Shown here: positions 12,867 to 25,636 of the stretch, one piece after another
Layout of the letters: each line of letters opens with the position of its first letter
Numbering within the stretch: position 1 is the stretch's first letter
Virus record (IMG/VR): IMGVR_UViG_3300042392_001041
Span: 1 to 40,553 of that record
Source: a virus
DNA length: 40,553 bases
Strand: one strand, 5' to 3'
Program-made: the position numbers and the translations under genes
The notes under the pieces: generated by a model
What the model saw: the letters and a program-made list of their open reading frames with translations, nothing else
The model's database searches: none
What the model was told of the DNA's origin: nothing

Positions 12867-14558
12867 ATGCTTCCCCGTCCTGACGCTCCCGCAACTCGAT
12901 TGCCTTATACCACCGCCGATATGGGCGAGCGTTTGGCTAAACGCAAAGCACAAGAACAATTCAAAACTAACGCATTGAAGACCCTGTCTAACTACAAACC
13001 CAAAGAAGACAAGCCGTGGTACGAAGATGTCGCAGGAGCCATCGGTGGCGCAATCAAAACCGTTTACGACAATATGCCCATGTCCAACCCAGTCTCAACA
13101 CCAATCAACATGGGTGGCAATGCTGGGGTGTCAATGGGTGGGCAAGGCACGGCCAAGTCCCTAGTATTAGAACCAGCGCGTCTTGCCGTTCGTCGAGCAG
13201 TCGGTGACATTACAGCGATCCCCCGTGTAGGTGCAGACTCGCCGTCGTACACCGCAGATCAGATACGCGAACAAGGCGTAGTGCCAGGCGTACTAGGTGC
13301 AGCAATTGATTACTCGCAATTCATTCCCGTCGTAGCCAAAGGTGCTGGCGTGACAGGCGATGTTGTGAACGCCTACAAACTTGCGATGATGGAACGCCAG
13401 GCGAACCCGTTTCCTGCTTTGCGTGGCGCATCCAATGTCATTGATGTCGTGCCAGGTTCACGCCTACCAGCTCGCATCGTGGATGCACCCGCACCACCTG
13501 CAACTCGGCTAGGCAATGCGCTAGCGCAAATGACACTAGACGCACGAGCATCACAAGGTGGCGTACGAGACGCAGGCGTTTTACGTTTCCCCGGCGGCGA
13601 ACCAACACCCGAACTACCAGCAGCCCAACTATCACCACCAGCATTTCGTGAACGAAAAGTACCAACGTCAAGCCGACTTACCGTAGAAACAGACGGCCCA
13701 CCTGACCCACAAGCAAGCCAAGAGTTTGTTATTCGCGCATTTGACAACACGTCCGATCAATATAAAGGCGCGTTAACAATGTATTGGGATCCAATAAAAC
13801 AAAAAGCAATAGTTTATGGAATGGGGGCAACCGATGCAATGGTCACTCCACAACTCGTTTCTTCTGCTGCCTACATAATTAGAAAATATTACGGCGACAT
13901 ACAATTTCCATTAGAACCTGCTAGGAATTTATCGGCTTATTCTCGACCATTTGTAGAAAGGTTACAAAAAGCTGGACTAATAGACCCTGATTTTGTTTTG
14001 CCTGAAGCCTATGAACTAAATTCAATTAACAAAGCTGCATTGCCTGAAGATTTTGCTGATGAATTTTCTGAATATTCCGAAGTCATTCCATCGCTTGCTT
14101 ATCAACCGACTTACAACAATGTTCTTAAAGCCTTAGTTGAAAGCAAACGAAAAGCCAAATTAGAAGGTGAATACGGCAAACTTGCTACATCTTCTCAAAA
14201 ATTGCAAGAATTAAAATGGAATCCAAATAAATTAAACACCGCAGAAATGTATCGAAGCAATATGGACCAATTTGGTTTTCCAGTACACCCATTGTTTAAT
14301 CTTTTTGGTGATGAATGGAATAATAATTTATTAAATGAAATTATTACTTATCCCTTTAGAGGTGCATCTTCCTTGGTCGATGCTTGGAAAAAAATTGATC
14401 CAGCAATAGTAGAAAATCTTGATTCAACTTGGGGCCCGTCATTTGCTCCAACCAAACAAAATTTATTAAAGTTTCCTCAGTTACTACAAGATTCAAATTT
14501 GATTGATGGGTTTACACGTCAACGATTATTGGTTGAATTGCAAGATTTGTTGGAGTAA
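12867..14558 (+). CDS. Probable internal virion protein with AT-rich 3' half
   Basis: 563 residues. The first half is Ala/Gly/Pro-rich, with a Gly/Met stretch (NMGGNAGVSMGG) and hydrophobic helices like those at the N-terminus of the giant protein. The second half (from about residue 290) is a distinct domain: GALTMYWDPIKQKAIVYGMG, then LSAYSRPFVERLQKAGLI, a layout that faintly recalls GNAT-like segments of other phage internal proteins, without a clear cofactor loop. Base composition changes inside the gene: 36 of 60 bases are G or C at 13201-13260 but 15 of 60 at 14281-14340. This suggests the C-terminal domain came by recombination. Function inferred from context only. Confidence 0.55.
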   Translation: MLPRPDAPATRLPYTTADMGERLAKRKAQEQFKTNALKTLSNYKPKEDKPWYEDVAGAIGGAIKTVYDNMPMSNPVSTPINMGGNAGVSMGGQGTAKSLVLEPARLAVRRAVGDITAIPRVGADSPSYTADQIREQGVVPGVLGAAIDYSQFIPVVAKGAGVTGDVVNAYKLAMMERQANPFPALRGASNVIDVVPGSRLPARIVDAPAPPATRLGNALAQMTLDARASQGGVRDAGVLRFPGGEPTPELPAAQLSPPAFRERKVPTSSRLTVETDGPPDPQASQEFVIRAFDNTSDQYKGALTMYWDPIKQKAIVYGMGATDAMVTPQLVSSAAYIIRKYYGDIQFPLEPARNLSAYSRPFVERLQKAGLIDPDFVLPEAYELNSINKAALPEDFADEFSEYSEVIPSLAYQPTYNNVLKALVESKRKAKLEGEYGKLATSSQKLQELKWNPNKLNTAEMYRSNMDQFGFPVHPLFNLFGDEWNNNLLNEIITYPFRGASSLVDAWKKIDPAIVENLDSTWGPSFAPTKQNLLKFPQLLQDSNLIDGFTRQRLLVELQDLLE

Positions 14559-14685: not shown

Positions 14686-15243
14686 ATGCGGCAAATCACC
14701 AAAGCAATAACCATTATTTGCGTTATGTCCTCGTGCGGATCAACAGCAAAAGAAGCAACCGAAACGCTTCCTACGCTCCAGCTCGCACCAGTCATATCTC
14801 AACCAGTCATTTTGAATGCACACGAAGCATTGCAAGAAGACCTAACAACAACAACCACATCCACCACAACAACCACAGAAGCACCGTTAGTATCAGATCC
14901 CCTTGATTTCATTGACGAATCGCGTGCAATGCATGGCAAGTGTGGTGAATGGTACGACACACTTATTGCTGTTGGTGGACGCGCAGAAGACTGGCCTATA
15001 TGGTCACGCGTGCTATGGATCGAGAGTCGTTGCCTTCCAGCACCAGGCAAGACCCTTGAAGCATCCGCACAAGCCGACTGTATTGGGCTAACTCAAATCT
15101 TTTTTCGGGTGCATGAAGCCTGGTTGTCGGAGTTCGGTTTCGGTAGAGAAGACCTGCTAGACCCCGTAAAAAACCTGACATTCGCTGTCGCGTTACAGAA
15201 GTCTTCGGGCTGGTCGCCGTGGGCTTATCTAAATATGCCTTGA
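14686..15243 (+). CDS. Lytic transglycosylase-like lipoprotein
   Basis: 185 residues with an AAAGGAAA ribosome site. A signal segment ends in VMSSC (Cys17), a plausible lipobox. A Thr-rich linker (TTTTTSTTTTTEAP, about 54-67) leads to a domain with the SLT layout: SRVLWIESRCLP with candidate catalytic Glu113, then QADCIGLTQI, a His/Trp segment and LLDPVKNLTFAVALQKSSGWSPWAYL. In the family this domain cleaves the glycan of peptidoglycan. The protein would sit on the outer face of the membrane. It has its own promoter and heads the recombination and regulation block, far from the lysis genes, so wall remodelling or exclusion during infection is as likely as final lysis. Confidence 0.75.
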   Translation: MRQITKAITIICVMSSCGSTAKEATETLPTLQLAPVISQPVILNAHEALQEDLTTTTTSTTTTTEAPLVSDPLDFIDESRAMHGKCGEWYDTLIAVGGRAEDWPIWSRVLWIESRCLPAPGKTLEASAQADCIGLTQIFFRVHEAWLSEFGFGREDLLDPVKNLTFAVALQKSSGWSPWAYLNMP

Positions 15244-18564: not shown

Positions 18565-18788
18565 ACCGTGAACCACTACCCGACTCACGCCGACCCGACT
18601 TCGGCATGGGCGACCCCGTAGTACGCGAATCTAAACACGACATGGTTGAATACATGACCGAAGTAACCCGCGACATGAAACGAATCATGGACGAACACAC
18701 GATACTCATGAAGCAGTTACTGACTGTCATGACATCAATCCGAGATGCCCAACAGCAAGACCGCTGGAACAACCAGGGGCGACGATGA
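18561..18788 (+). CDS. Small helical protein
   Basis: 75 residues; ATG overlaps the upstream TGA. An Asp/Pro/Arg-rich start (EPLPDSRRPDFGMGD) is followed by a long amphipathic helix (MVEYMTEVTRDMKRIMDEH, LMKQLLTVMTSIRDAQQQD) rich in Met. Probably a coiled-coil oligomer. No known family. It ends in an ATGA overlap with the methyltransferase gene. Confidence 0.5.
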   Translation: MNREPLPDSRRPDFGMGDPVVRESKHDMVEYMTEVTRDMKRIMDEHTILMKQLLTVMTSIRDAQQQDRWNNQGRR

Positions 18789-20215
18789 CACTCACATATG
18801 GAAGCCTTTTTGCGGGCGTGGGCGGTTTTGACATGGGCATGGAAGCGGCTTCTTACGAGCCTGTGTTCCAAGTCGAATGGGATAAGAACTGCCAAAAGAT
18901 CCTGCACCACCATTGGCCGACCGTCCCCAAATGGGGCGACGTATGCGATGTCAACGGTGCAGACCTACCACCATGCGACGTGCTGATCTTCGGATCACCA
19001 TGTCAAGACCTATCAGTAGCAGGCAAGCGAGCTGGACTCCAAGACGGAGACAGATCATCAATGTTCTTTGAAGCCGTACGAATCATCAAGGAGATGAGAG
19101 ATGCAACTAACTCTATTTACCCAAGAGCCACCATATGGGAAAACGTCCCAGGAGCCTTGTCAAGCAACAAAGGAGCCGACTTCGGTGTCGTCCTCTCAAG
19201 TTTGGCTGACATCGGGGCGATTACACAAGAATACGCCGTGCTGGACGCGCAATACTTCCGAAGCACCCCGCAACGACGACGAAGAATATTTCTCGTCTCT
19301 ATCTTCTGTCCTACAGCCAGCGAAAGATGTCCCGACCCGTTACTACCTCTCATCCAAGGCAGCCGAGGGGATTTTGCGAAGGGCCGAAAGGCGCGGAAAG
19401 ACGCTACCCGATTTGCTTCGACAAGCATTGATCCAGGTGATGGAGAAGGATTCCGAATGCTCGCCTTCGGTTATTACACCAACGACGACACCGCTTCCGC
19501 AATAAAAATGCGCGACTACAAAGACGCAACAGATCTCGTTGTGCCATTTGTAAAGTCACGCCGGGCGCAAACTAACACCGATGATGAAACATGGGTAGAA
19601 GGTTCCGTAACCCCGACACTCAACGCCTTTGACAATGGTGGTGAAACTAGGGCTACCGTCCTAATGCCTGTCGCATATTCGATTCGTGAGGATGCCAAAG
19701 CTAACAACTTCAGCGTGACCGAGACAGATACAGCCCTATGTCTCAATGGTCTAGTGCCATCAACGCAGTCGCACCACGCTCAAATATTTATTGCCGAACC
19801 CATTGTCTACGATGGTTACAACCAAAAACTTGACGACAGCGGAATTCACCGTTCGTTGCGTATCGGTCGAGATAGTAGCGACTTCGTGGCACAGCCAATC
19901 ATCTTTGAAAATTCATACCGTGACGGGCCGCGAGTAGGCGACGACATCTGCCATACATTGCCCGCCAAAATGGGCTTAGGTGGTGGCAACACGCCGATGC
20001 TGGCAGAACCAATCGAACACCGATTAGCAGTACGTCGACTTACCCCATTGGAATGCGAAAGATTGCAAGGATGGCCCGACGACCACACCCGCTGGACAGC
20101 AGACGGCAAAGAGCAAGCCGACACCAACCGCTACAAACAATGCGGGAACGGGGTAGCGTCACCCGTGGCACGCTGGGTAGGCGAACAACTACGACCAGTA
20201 TTGGAGACGGAATGA
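18785..20215 (+). CDS. DNA (cytosine-5) methyltransferase
   Basis: 476 residues with the standard motif order: FAGVGGF (I, residues 9-15, SAM binding), GSPCQDLSVAG (IV, catalytic Cys73), ENVPG (VI, Glu119), QYFRSTPQRRRRIFLVS (VIII, about 156-172), a target-recognition region of about 250 residues (CHTLPAKMGLGGGNTP near its end), and CGNGVASPVARW (X). It would methylate cytosine at an unknown site, protecting phage DNA from host restriction or marking expression. No partner nuclease gene is seen, so it is an orphan enzyme. A second frame is open and has its own ribosome site inside it (19101-19505). Confidence 0.9.
   Translation: MTLTYGSLFAGVGGFDMGMEAASYEPVFQVEWDKNCQKILHHHWPTVPKWGDVCDVNGADLPPCDVLIFGSPCQDLSVAGKRAGLQDGDRSSMFFEAVRIIKEMRDATNSIYPRATIWENVPGALSSNKGADFGVVLSSLADIGAITQEYAVLDAQYFRSTPQRRRRIFLVSIFCPTASERCPDPLLPLIQGSRGDFAKGRKARKDATRFASTSIDPGDGEGFRMLAFGYYTNDDTASAIKMRDYKDATDLVVPFVKSRRAQTNTDDETWVEGSVTPTLNAFDNGGETRATVLMPVAYSIREDAKANNFSVTETDTALCLNGLVPSTQSHHAQIFIAEPIVYDGYNQKLDDSGIHRSLRIGRDSSDFVAQPIIFENSYRDGPRVGDDICHTLPAKMGLGGGNTPMLAEPIEHRLAVRRLTPLECERLQGWPDDHTRWTADGKEQADTNRYKQCGNGVASPVARWVGEQLRPVLETE
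19101..19505 (+). CDS. Nested overlapping reading frame in the methyltransferase gene
   Basis: 134 codons, one base forward of the methyltransferase frame. AAGGAG at 19088-19093 lies seven bases before ATG 19101, a better ribosome site than that of the host gene. The product starts MQLTLFTQEPP, has NTSEAPRNDDEEYFSSLSSVL opposite motif VIII, and then VPTRYYLSSKAAEGILRRAE and RRGKTLPDLLRQAL opposite the segment before the target-recognition region. I recall the same alternate-frame pattern (SLSxVL, YYLSxKAxxGILRRAExRGKxLP) in many phage methyltransferase loci. Conserved dual coding is therefore plausible; a by-product of conserved methyltransferase codons is the alternative. Function unknown. 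Confidence 0.5.
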   Translation: MQLTLFTQEPPYGKTSQEPCQATKEPTSVSSSQVWLTSGRLHKNTPCWTRNTSEAPRNDDEEYFSSLSSVLQPAKDVPTRYYLSSKAAEGILRRAERRGKTLPDLLRQALIQVMEKDSECSPSVITPTTTPLPQ

Positions 20216-20382: not shown

Positions 20383-20507
20383 TGAACCAACTATCGCCTG
20401 AGGAGCAACGATTTGTGGACAAAACAGTTGAAGTCATCTACTTCACAGGATTAGCAGCAACGTGTGTCGCGATCCTGTGGTGGATCATCGGCAAGATTAC
20501 GAAATAA
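20379..20507 (+). CDS. Small single-helix membrane protein
   Basis: 42 residues; ATGATG start overlaps the upstream TGA. A charged amphipathic start (SPEEQRFVDKTVEV) is followed by one membrane helix (YFTGLAATCVAILWWIIG) and KITK. It is the last rightward gene of this block and its end overlaps the convergent recombinase gene by 11 bases. Role unknown. Confidence 0.5.
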   Translation: MMNQLSPEEQRFVDKTVEVIYFTGLAATCVAILWWIIGKITK

Positions 20508-21402
20508 CCGAGTCAGGTGCAGAACCCGACCCAAATCTGTCTCCATTAGGCTCGACCACAATCTGAGCTATCACATCAGCCTGACTAACCAACGACACAG
20601 GATTGAGTAGGCGCAAAGTCTGCCGAACATACCTATCGTTCGTATGGCCGAGCCACTTCGCTATCACCGGGACAGGAACACCACGCTGAAACTGACGCTG
20701 GACAGCCCACCGACGCATATCCTGCACCGTAAGCCGACGACCAACAGCACCCGAAGCAACATCATTAATCGTCTCAGTCGCGTGCTTAGAACCAAACGTC
20801 CCGCCGAGCGTAGTAGTGGCAGCGAACACCGCTGTCAGACCTAAAGTCAGCACTTCAAGACGACCGTCCACCGGGATCTCGCGCCTGTTACCTCGACGAG
20901 AACGCACCGTGACTAGCGTCTTCCCTTCCCAGGTGCGAACATCCGTCTTACGAATTCGGAGAGCTTCAGCACAATCACAGCCACCCCAGGCGACCATCGC
21001 AGCGAGCCATTCCCAACGAGGCCCACGCTTAGAAAACGCTGACATGACCGCCACCATCTCGTCATCAGACGGCACAGTAGAACTATCAAGCACGATGACA
21101 CGCTTTGGCATCTTGACCGAATGCAGACCGTGAACCTTCAGAACACCAGCCTCGACCAGCGCATCCATCCACTTTGCGACCCCACAAACCCGCGACGCAA
21201 CCGAGGTTGACGTGTACTGAGAAGCCATCCAATCCACAAACAATTGAGCGTTCACCGCCGTGCAATCCAAAGGATGAATGTCCACCAAAGCACACCACCG
21301 TTGCCAGGTCATGATGTCCTTCTTGTACCGTTTACGAGTATGAATCGAGGCGTAACCCCCAAGGTGATGAGCCGTAATCGAGCGAACAGAAGCCATAAAC
21401 AA
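20497..21402 (-). CDS. Tyrosine recombinase homologue with altered catalytic residues
   Basis: 301 residues (ATG 21396, two codons in, is an alternative start). The N-terminal half has the core-binding fold (SIHTRKRYKKDIMTWQRW, LFVDWMASQYTSTSVASRV). The C-terminal half follows the catalytic layout, but key positions differ: GGCDCAEALRI has Asp143 where the first Arg is expected; VQDMRRWAV has Gln228 for the box II His (Arg231 is kept); WLGHTNDRYVRQTLRL keeps His253 but has Thr at the usual Tyr site, with Tyr258 nearer. SRRGNRREIPV may supply the Lys loop. It is therefore either an inactive DNA-binding relative or a divergent enzyme that uses Tyr258. The upstream gap holds attP-like repeats. 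Confidence 0.8.
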   Translation of the reverse strand: MFMASVRSITAHHLGGYASIHTRKRYKKDIMTWQRWCALVDIHPLDCTAVNAQLFVDWMASQYTSTSVASRVCGVAKWMDALVEAGVLKVHGLHSVKMPKRVIVLDSSTVPSDDEMVAVMSAFSKRGPRWEWLAAMVAWGGCDCAEALRIRKTDVRTWEGKTLVTVRSRRGNRREIPVDGRLEVLTLGLTAVFAATTTLGGTFGSKHATETINDVASGAVGRRLTVQDMRRWAVQRQFQRGVPVPVIAKWLGHTNDRYVRQTLRLLNPVSLVSQADVIAQIVVEPNGDRFGSGSAPDSVIS

Positions 21403-21437
21403 TGTTTACCACACTTAATCGGAATTATTTGCCTGCA

Positions 21438-21489
21438 ACGCACGCTGACGAGCCACATTTGCGAAAATATTTTGCGATCACGCACGCTG
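21438..21489. promoter_or_regulatory. Direct repeats flanking an AT-rich centre: possible recombinase arm sites
   Basis: ACGCACGCTG occurs at 21438-21447 and 21480-21489, 42 bases apart (four helical turns). Between them, TTTGCGA occurs twice around AAAATATTTT. The site is within 90 bases of the recombinase start, where attP usually lies. It could instead be an operator controlling that gene. Confidence 0.45.
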
Positions 21490-21612
21490 TCAACCCACAC
21501 CCAGCGCAGTTTGGGTTCTTTTGGTCGACCGCCCGTGGCCGAGCTGCCATGCCGGGCGAAGTATCCAGGGAAAAACGACCCAAACGCCCGCACCTATGAC
21601 ACCCCCCGCATA

Positions 21613-21639: not shown

Positions 21640-21665
21640 AAACCCGCGCACATCGGCGCGGGTTT
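21640..21665 (-). terminator. Rho-independent terminator of the minus-strand cassette
   Basis: A perfect 10-bp stem AAACCCGCGC/GCGCGGGTTT with a six-base loop. Read on the minus strand it is followed by six T residues; the other side has only TTTAAT. It lies 27 bases after the last minus-strand stop at 21692 and separates the cassette from the recombinase gene. Confidence 0.85.
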
Positions 21666-21691: not shown

Positions 21692-22000
21692 TCAGTCACC
21701 AATCACCCCCGCCGACCCGACCGCGTAAGCATGAATAACCGCGACCAACTCGCGCGCCGATTCGGCCGCCGGGCGATCAAGAACAAACCAACGACCACCC
21801 CCGCCCCCGATCTTCTCAAGCCACAACGACCAACACCCGCGCGCCGTTGACCCATACCGCCACCGAAAACCAGGCACGGCGGGAAGACCACGGGCAACTA
21901 TAGGCAAACAGCCAGCCCCGCACCGATGCCCCAACGGATCAAGCCCCGAACACGGGAGACGGTCTACACGATCAGACACAGCGAGCCACCGCCCACACAA
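21692..22000 (-). CDS. Last gene of minus-strand cassette, hypothetical
   Basis: Up to 102 residues from TTG 22000; a GTG 21 bases further in is an alternative start. The product has several Cys early (LPCSGLDPLGHRCGAGC), a Trp/Gly-rich centre (RGCWSLWLEKIGGGGGRWF) and a helical end (AAESARELVAVIHAYAVG). The stop lies just before a strong terminator in the same orientation, which supports a real gene. No family is recognised, and the start is uncertain. Confidence 0.45.
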   Translation of the reverse strand: MCGRWLAVSDRVDRLPCSGLDPLGHRCGAGCLPIVARGLPAVPGFRWRYGSTARGCWSLWLEKIGGGGGRWFVLDRPAAESARELVAVIHAYAVGSAGVIGD

Positions 22001-22090: not shown

Positions 22091-23077
22091 TCATGCCGAC
22101 ACCAACCCGCGACGAACCCGAACCGCAACCGCAGAACCCAACCGCCCCGCCGTCTTCCCGTTGTTCTTTCCACCATGAAGAAGAAAGGTGACAGATCGAC
22201 CAACCGAATCGGGAAGACAAACACCGCAAGCGACACAAGCCCCAACACCCAACGCGCCACGGGATGCCGACGACCGCCGACCATCCAGCCCGACAACATG
22301 GGCGGGAATATTCAACCCGTCCCGCGCCCACTTGCCCGACACGGGACACTCAACCGCCGACGGCACAGGAGCAACCGCCAAAGCGCGCGCCCAAAGTTCT
22401 ACGGCATGAGTCTTATTATCGGCAAGCATCGCCAACGGCAAACCGAGACGACTACCCGCCCGCGCCATCTTGGCGACGTTGAAAGAATCAGCCGAAAGAT
22501 AAACAGCCAAATTAGAGGGGGCAGGTAGTAACGCCTTGACCTTGACCGCGTCGCGCGTGTATATCCAATGATCTACCGACGAGGTAGCAACAACCGCGGA
22601 ACGAATCGCGCGCCCGTACCAAGTCGCAAAAATATCACCGCCCGAATGCCAACGAAAACACGGTGACACAACACCGCGCGCCCTTTGCTGGTTCTCGGAA
22701 TGTTGAACACACGCAACCAACGCCGACACAACCGCCGACAGTCCCGCGCATTCTTTCAAGTGTTGAAGGTTCGCAAGATTCACATCTGACCCCGCGCCAT
22801 ATTGTGGCGCGCGTGCTTCAAGCCCGCCCGCGTAACAATCAACACACGCCGAAGTCGTGGCATCGCATGACCCGCCAACATTCAACGCACCAACGGGCAA
22901 AGGTAAAGCATTAGCAACTAACGCCGACGCGCTCCCCTTGCTGTCAATCTGAACTATGGGCGAAGTCTTCGCGTCATGGTGAAGCATGAACCGCAACGAC
23001 AAACCGCAACGACACGAAACAAAAACCCCGCCACCAATTGACGCGGTAACAGTAGGTAAACGATCCTTGCGCATCAT
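22091..23077 (-). CDS. Gp88-like Cys-rich protein, possible iron-sulfur protein
   Basis: 328 residues; start overlaps the previous gene (ATGATG across its TGA). Key features: GGSCDATTSACVDCYAGGLE (Cys71, Cys78, Cys81), CFRWHSGGDIFATWYGRAIR (Cys140, His144, Asp148), LSADSFN, ECPVSGKW (Cys244) and ACVACGVCLPDS (Cys281, Cys284, Cys287). The CxxCYA and HSGGD motifs are those of the Gp88-type proteins of phages as I remember them. The two Cys triads suggest one or two iron-sulfur clusters; the first is near but not identical to the radical-SAM CxxxCxxC. Activity is unknown. The gene is GC-rich with many CpG-rich codons, unlike the late genes. Confidence 0.6.
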   Translation of the reverse strand: MMRKDRLPTVTASIGGGVFVSCRCGLSLRFMLHHDAKTSPIVQIDSKGSASALVANALPLPVGALNVGGSCDATTSACVDCYAGGLEARAPQYGAGSDVNLANLQHLKECAGLSAVVSALVACVQHSENQQRARGVVSPCFRWHSGGDIFATWYGRAIRSAVVATSSVDHWIYTRDAVKVKALLPAPSNLAVYLSADSFNVAKMARAGSRLGLPLAMLADNKTHAVELWARALAVAPVPSAVECPVSGKWARDGLNIPAHVVGLDGRRSSASRGALGVGACVACGVCLPDSVGRSVTFLLHGGKNNGKTAGRLGSAVAVRVRRGLVSA

Positions 23078-25016: not shown

Positions 25017-25636
25017 GTTATGCCCCACCACCTACCTCGTGACCGTGCCCAAACCTGGCCGCACCCCCCGCACACCCATTGGGGGGCCCCACCCCCCTCT
25101 CCCTATTCACTCTCCCGTATTTTTCGACCTTTTTCAAAGGGTGTCCTTGCCGGGGGCTTGGCATCTTCGATGTTGGAAGGTCAAGGGCTTCCGCCGTTGG
25201 CGGCTAACGCCTCACCATCGCCAGCGTGGCTGTCGAAGTTCGTTGTTGTCATCCGTGTGTTGTCACATCGGTGACTTGTACGTTGTCTCAGACCTTTCGG
25301 TCTGCCCCAATGCCCTACCGTTGGCGGCCCTACACCGTACCAACACCCGAACCTTAACGATGTTCACTCGTTTCATTATTTAACTACCTACCCACGGCTT
25401 ACTGGCTGGCATCCAATTCGACTGTTGGCTTGACTCCACGCATGGGATCCGAACCCCCTTTCAGGTCACAAAGTCCCTACGCTCCTGGTTAGACAGGCTT
25501 ACTACGGGCGAGTTCCGCTTGGCGTGTCATCCCGACAGGCTCAAGCTTCGTAAGTTCGGTGACATGACAATACCATGGGGCTGTATGGTGATAGTGTCAG
25601 TTTTTGTAACAGGACAAAGTTTATTTGGGAGAAGAT
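25017..25636. other. Non-coding control region between divergent blocks
   Basis: About 620 bases without a credible gene. It contains a G6/C6 inverted repeat around 25080-25106, a GTCAC-ATCG-GTGAC hairpin near 25262-25275, a CAGACC-TTTC-GGTCTG hairpin near 25290-25305, and CGTTGGCGGC twice (around 25193 and 25319). Close to the first late gene, TGTATGGTGATAG (about 25582-25594) is a weak promoter candidate. The many hairpins suggest a structured leader or origin, but none matches a class I know. Confidence 0.5.

Follow-up and report, generated by a model that had tools for sequence, protein, structure and literature searches.

A protein with the tyrosine recombinase (YR) fold, whose catalytic set has been replaced, is encoded in the window (the whole stretch of DNA that was analysed, a 40.5-kb virus record), and it belongs to a family of phage proteins, referred to below as the dead family, in which the same substitutions were observed in 27 of 27 relatives wherever the site was covered, down to 49% identity. 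The sequence alignment settles the loss of the catalytic set, from which we infer that cleavage activity was lost as well. In every one of the 28 genomes a single-copy 11-bp box, CTGGGTGTGGG, precedes the ATG, and this element is newly described here. A whole family devoid of the cutting residues, together with a conserved element beside its gene, makes a DNA-binding regulator the most likely role, and we see about an even chance that the protein is an autoregulated, site-specific DNA-binding regulator, namely a YR that has lost catalysis and resembles the phage repressor MrpR. The features concerned, in the order in which they lie on the window, are as follows.

20497–21396, minus strand: dead tyrosine-recombinase-fold protein, 299 aa (ATG at 21396, stop at 20497)
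21403–21408, minus strand: putative -10 element TAAACA, proposed from the upstream alignment and the promoter habits of Actinobacteria
21438–21447, minus strand: second direct repeat, CAGCGTGCGT
21464–21473, minus strand: A/T tract between the repeats, AAAATATTTT
21480–21489, minus strand: first direct repeat, CAGCGTGCGT
21494–21504, minus strand: conserved box CTGGGTGTGGG, 11 bp, upstream of the dead YR gene
21640–21665, minus strand: intrinsic terminator, a 10-pair stem followed by a T-run, which parts the gene from the leftward genes upstream
21692–22000, minus strand: conserved 102-aa ORF, next upstream of the dead YR gene, with no family match
22091–23077, minus strand: GP88 family protein (PF17338), a conserved neighbour

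Catalytic residues, fold and ancestry

The open reading frame runs on the minus strand from 21402 to 20497 and is opened by a TTG at 21402, and the plus strand at 20497–21402 contains stops. The relatives share the start at the ATG of 21396, so the protein is taken to be of 299 aa; residue numbers follow the 301-aa scheme of the first-pass annotation, which counts from the TTG. The gene is intact in all relatives but one, whose record ends inside the gene at the contig end. The family alignment comprised 28 sequences including that of the window, 27 of which extend to box II. The position of the box I arginine is occupied by aspartate in 26 and glutamate in two of the 28 members, so that the earlier reading of Asp143 at the first catalytic Arg proved correct, and the β-hairpin lysine is replaced by arginine in all 28 (Arg169 in the window protein). 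The box II histidine is glutamine in all 27 sequences that reach it, and the box II arginine is kept while the next histidine has become arginine across the same 27; the first-pass annotation had named the first substitution and the retained arginine rightly but numbered them one too high, as Gln228 and Arg231 in place of Gln227 and Arg230, and its list did not include the β-hairpin change to Arg169 or the change of the second box II histidine to Arg231. The retained LGH motif, also as annotated, carries His253 in 27 of 27, and Thr262, which was recognised at the usual place of the tyrosine nine residues after this histidine, is T or V across the 27 covering members and is followed by leucine at His+10. 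Position 258 (His+5) varies, with tyrosine in 10, tryptophan in 15 and asparagine in two. The catalytic columns are thus fixed as D/E-E-R-Q-R-R-H with no conserved tyrosine anywhere in the family; the R-K-H-R-H/W-Y set is absent from the dead family and intact in its nearest relatives. Close homologues bearing the same substitutions had been proposed as a check, and the search for them returned the 27 relatives, all alike at the covered sites.

The AlphaFold model built from 14 family members reached a mean pLDDT of 81, with values under 50 for residues 252–268, the segment expected to hold the tyrosine, so that the model alone cannot position this segment. The predicted catalytic domain superposes on the integrase domain of P2 (2.5 Å over 140 residues) and of HP1 (2.4 Å over 143 residues), in agreement with the clear recombinase fold claimed from the sequence. 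Structure matches to YRs gave Z values of 15–19, including an archaeal Xer (18.7), the Brujita integrase (17.4) and SroF on DNA (15.2), and the large whole-chain rmsd values probably reflect the domain orientation of the model. The match to PHROG family phrog_1 (integrase, E 1.9e-13) and the predicted structure both place the protein among two-domain YRs, and Pfam matches for the window protein lie below the cut-offs only. The N-terminal DNA-binding, core-binding domain (PF02899) was recognised in 13 of 14 members and PF00589 in four of 14; both domains are equally conserved within the dead family, at a mean identity of 63% each. No assignment to XerC/XerD was obtained (TIGR02224, 31 bits vs a cut-off of 335), the PDB sequence search with the family profile gave one irrelevant match, and the plasmid search gave YR fragments only, about 23% identical.

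Pairwise dN/dS values among family members range from 0.04 to 0.27, which, together with the same substitutions in 27 relatives, indicates a stable pseudo-enzyme and not decay. The tree places the dead clade on one side of a branch with support of 100/99, which indicates a single origin, and the nearest relatives by sequence are intact actinobacterial YRs, namely integrases of Gordonia phages and YRs of Acidimicrobiales genomes. MrpR falls outside the branch of the dead clade (100/99), yet the MrpR branch is very long. The nearest intact relatives from phages are Bunker gp34, Utz gp31 and Dmitri gp36.

The upstream element and its genomic setting

The box CTGGGTGTGGG was observed 5′ of the ATG in 28 of 28 genomes, in 27 exactly and in L030 with one mismatch, and, measured to the end of the ATG, it starts 82–125 bp upstream, while the rest of the upstream DNA in these genomes is largely unalignable. 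The box is followed by a GCGTGC-like motif, often repeated, and by an A/T tract about 20–24 bp beyond it. The direct repeats are private to each lineage: CAGCGTGCGT stands twice in the window, TTTGGCGTGCATCCGAGC twice in L033, TTTGGCGTGCGATTCGACCG twice in L030, and L038 has the pair TTGCAATGCGTCCCGAC/TTTCAATGCGTCCCGAC; for the lineage of L024–L029 and L040 the second repeat is not clear. Private repeats that are alike within one genome have the look of a co-evolving protein-binding site. The putative -10 element stands 6 nt ahead of the ATG, which hints at a leaderless mRNA; in other lineages TAATTT stands in its place, and in L034 and L035 a Shine-Dalgarno sequence.

The site formed by box and A-tract occurs in one place per record, the long repeats have no second copy elsewhere in the genome, and CTGGGTGTGGG is among the few non-coding sequences in the set of 11-mers common to seven genomes. 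A pattern search of IMG/VR for box plus A-tract returned 75 loci, 25 of which have a dead recombinase; the remaining 50, with no relative in the stretch examined, look like chance matches. Two further candidates were set aside: dispersed operators, since the repeats occur only beside the gene and the extra one-mismatch 10-mers in the window clade are about as frequent as by chance, and a palindrome by the ATG, AAACATTGTTT, which is restricted to the window clade. Rfam gave no match within 20.3–26.8 kb.

Genes for RecT, RusA, a WhiB-like protein, a C5 methyltransferase, terminase, portal and capsid are present in the window. An actinobacterial host is indicated by the WhiB-like gene together with a copy, 69% identical, on a contig of an Acidimicrobiales MAG, this contig being phage DNA itself. 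Hairpins similar to the terminator were seen at the same position in several relatives, and the order GP88, 102-aa ORF, dead YR is kept in G011, G313, G314 and G315, the relatives examined most closely; the 102-aa ORF is about 47–52% identical in relatives. The convergent gene varies, being a C5 methyltransferase, another methyltransferase-like ORF or a small ORF, and the C5 methyltransferase of the window (18785–20215) thus occupies a variable slot among relatives. The WhiB-like gene and a 116-aa phrog_18663 gene were found in all five compared relatives with the dead recombinase. No YR was detectable in the near-full-length sister phages G318 and G319 (70% TerL identity), so that the dead YR is a stable part of one phage group and missing from its neighbour; in these sister phages RecT is followed by an AAA_5 (MoxR-like) ATPase and a phrog_33218 protein (L245:13568–15825). 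A second conserved non-coding element was observed at 25043–25150, where a GGGGGGxCCCC hairpin-like stretch is followed by TCCCGTATTTTT; it occurs in 10 of 10 dead-YR genomes examined and in G320, with no exact match in G318/G319; it stands ahead of the rightward terminase operon and may be a promoter or packaging signal. The ORFs at 12867–14558 and 14686–15243 gave no match in ten compared relatives.

Proposed role and competing explanations

Retention of the gene for DNA binding without cutting, one of the purposes suggested from the sequence, gains support from the fold, the selection, the fixed dead set and the upstream element, and the binding itself is what we infer from them. The element adjoins this gene only, after the terminator, which counts for binding. 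In the mechanism that we propose, the dead YR, in dimeric or higher oligomeric form, would bind the CTGGGTGTGGG/repeat element and leave it uncut, and the bound protein would control its own promoter just downstream of the element; such autoregulation, possibly with binding at further undetected sites, would make it a repressor-like phage regulator, as MrpR is for SPβ. With the element in single copy and the repeats not dispersed, no lytic promoter under dead-YR control was found. Neither an active integrase in these phages nor a prophage was seen, and a role in lysogeny therefore has no support from lifestyle. Control of another recombinase, also suggested earlier, gained no support within the phage, as no second YR was found among the 13 phage records searched.

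The same DNA could instead serve replication or maintenance, with box, repeats and A/T tract as an origin or partition site (replicator or centromere) and the dead YR as an iteron-binding initiator or centromere binder. Each genome has a single such site, the repeats flank an A/T tract, the gene of a DNA-binding protein adjoins, and a search of the window recognised no gene for a polymerase, primase, helicase or initiator; however, the sister phages G318 and G319, which carry no dead YR gene, have no recognisable initiators either, the lineage of L024–L029 and L040 has no clear second repeat, and a literature search found no description of a YR-derived initiator, so that we regard this role as somewhat improbable. 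The GC skew makes no turn at 21.4 kb and is uninformative for an origin. Whether the element belongs to this protein at all bears on a further reading, in which it would serve the WhiB-like or the 116-aa phrog_18663 regulator and the dead YR would act elsewhere, e.g., on host DNA. Both genes accompany the dead YR in the five relatives compared and the element is near the promoter, but the direct repeats are confined to the dead YR locus and the box occurs only once, which leaves this assignment unlikely.

YR enzymes act as tetramers, and the dead YR might pair at the upstream site with an active host YR of the XerC/XerD type, which would do the cutting. Acidimicrobiales genomes encode intact YRs, and the phage genome holds this site once, as expected of an attachment site; on the other hand, a search of about 690 genomes of the phylum for an integrated copy gave one match, a 5.2-kb contig on which all genes are those of a phage, and no inverted partner of the kind that a YR core site needs is apparent for the box. 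Such an accessory function seems quite unlikely. That the protein might still recombine through an altered active site using Tyr258, as the first-pass annotation had considered, draws on an alignment in which a short loop deletion puts Tyr258 in the catalytic Tyr column. Of the 27 covering members, 17 have Trp or Asn at this position and the others Tyr, and in view of this variation the residue was rejected as the nucleophile; with the first Arg acidic and the His replaced by Gln in all, continued recombination is highly improbable. A decaying integrase remnant, which the weak family scores below the Pfam cut-offs might suggest, has next to no probability in view of the intact gene in relatives, the low dN/dS and substitutions fixed across members only 49% identical.

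Comparison with known systems

The regulator proposed here finds its closest parallel in MrpR (YopR), the master repressor of the Bacillus prophage SPβ, which has the YR fold and no recombinase activity, represses by DNA binding, retains K169 and Y304, and binds a dispersed 15-bp element, SPBRE (PMC10516654). Both MrpR and the dead family are phage-encoded YR folds that have lost the catalytic Arg and His, as repressors of the MrpR/SroF type have, and the dead family may work like MrpR in principle; DNA-binding regulation is demonstrated for MrpR and proposed for the dead family. MrpR keeps the catalytic Tyr and Lys whereas the dead family keeps neither, and its element is dispersed whereas that of the dead family is in single copy beside its own gene; a dispersed repeated operator, as in the MrpR/SroF type, was not found in the phage genome. 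SroF, the phi3T repressor solved on DNA (PDB 9rd5, 9rgl), matches over the whole chain at 5.4 Å over 248 residues, but shares 11% identity and comes from a different host phylum; the comparison with SroF covered structure and identity.

The dead family apparently arose separately from MrpR/SroF of the SPβ-group phages. Kohm et al. suggested from the Bacillus case that tyrosine recombinases may have been recruited as transcription factors more widely than had been supposed (PMC10516654). The dead family apparently adds a separate example from phages with actinobacterial hosts, in which the catalytic side chains are more cleanly lost than in the Bacillus case and a precise conserved DNA element is present. 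For these phages, calling a phage temperate because an integrase is annotated would be unsafe.

The best structural matches, the Brujita integrase and XerA-like simple YRs (5vfz, 4a8e), likewise have two domains and no arm-binding domain, but are active enzymes, unlike the dead family. Bunker gp34, Utz gp31, Dmitri gp36 and the Acidimicrobiales YRs share the two-domain layout and keep the R, K, HxLRH, H and Y that the dead family has lost. Among L134, L135, L136 and L138, two annotated tyrosine integrases are present in each of the Gordonia phages Bunker, Dmitri and Oregano, and one tyrosine and one serine integrase in Utz.
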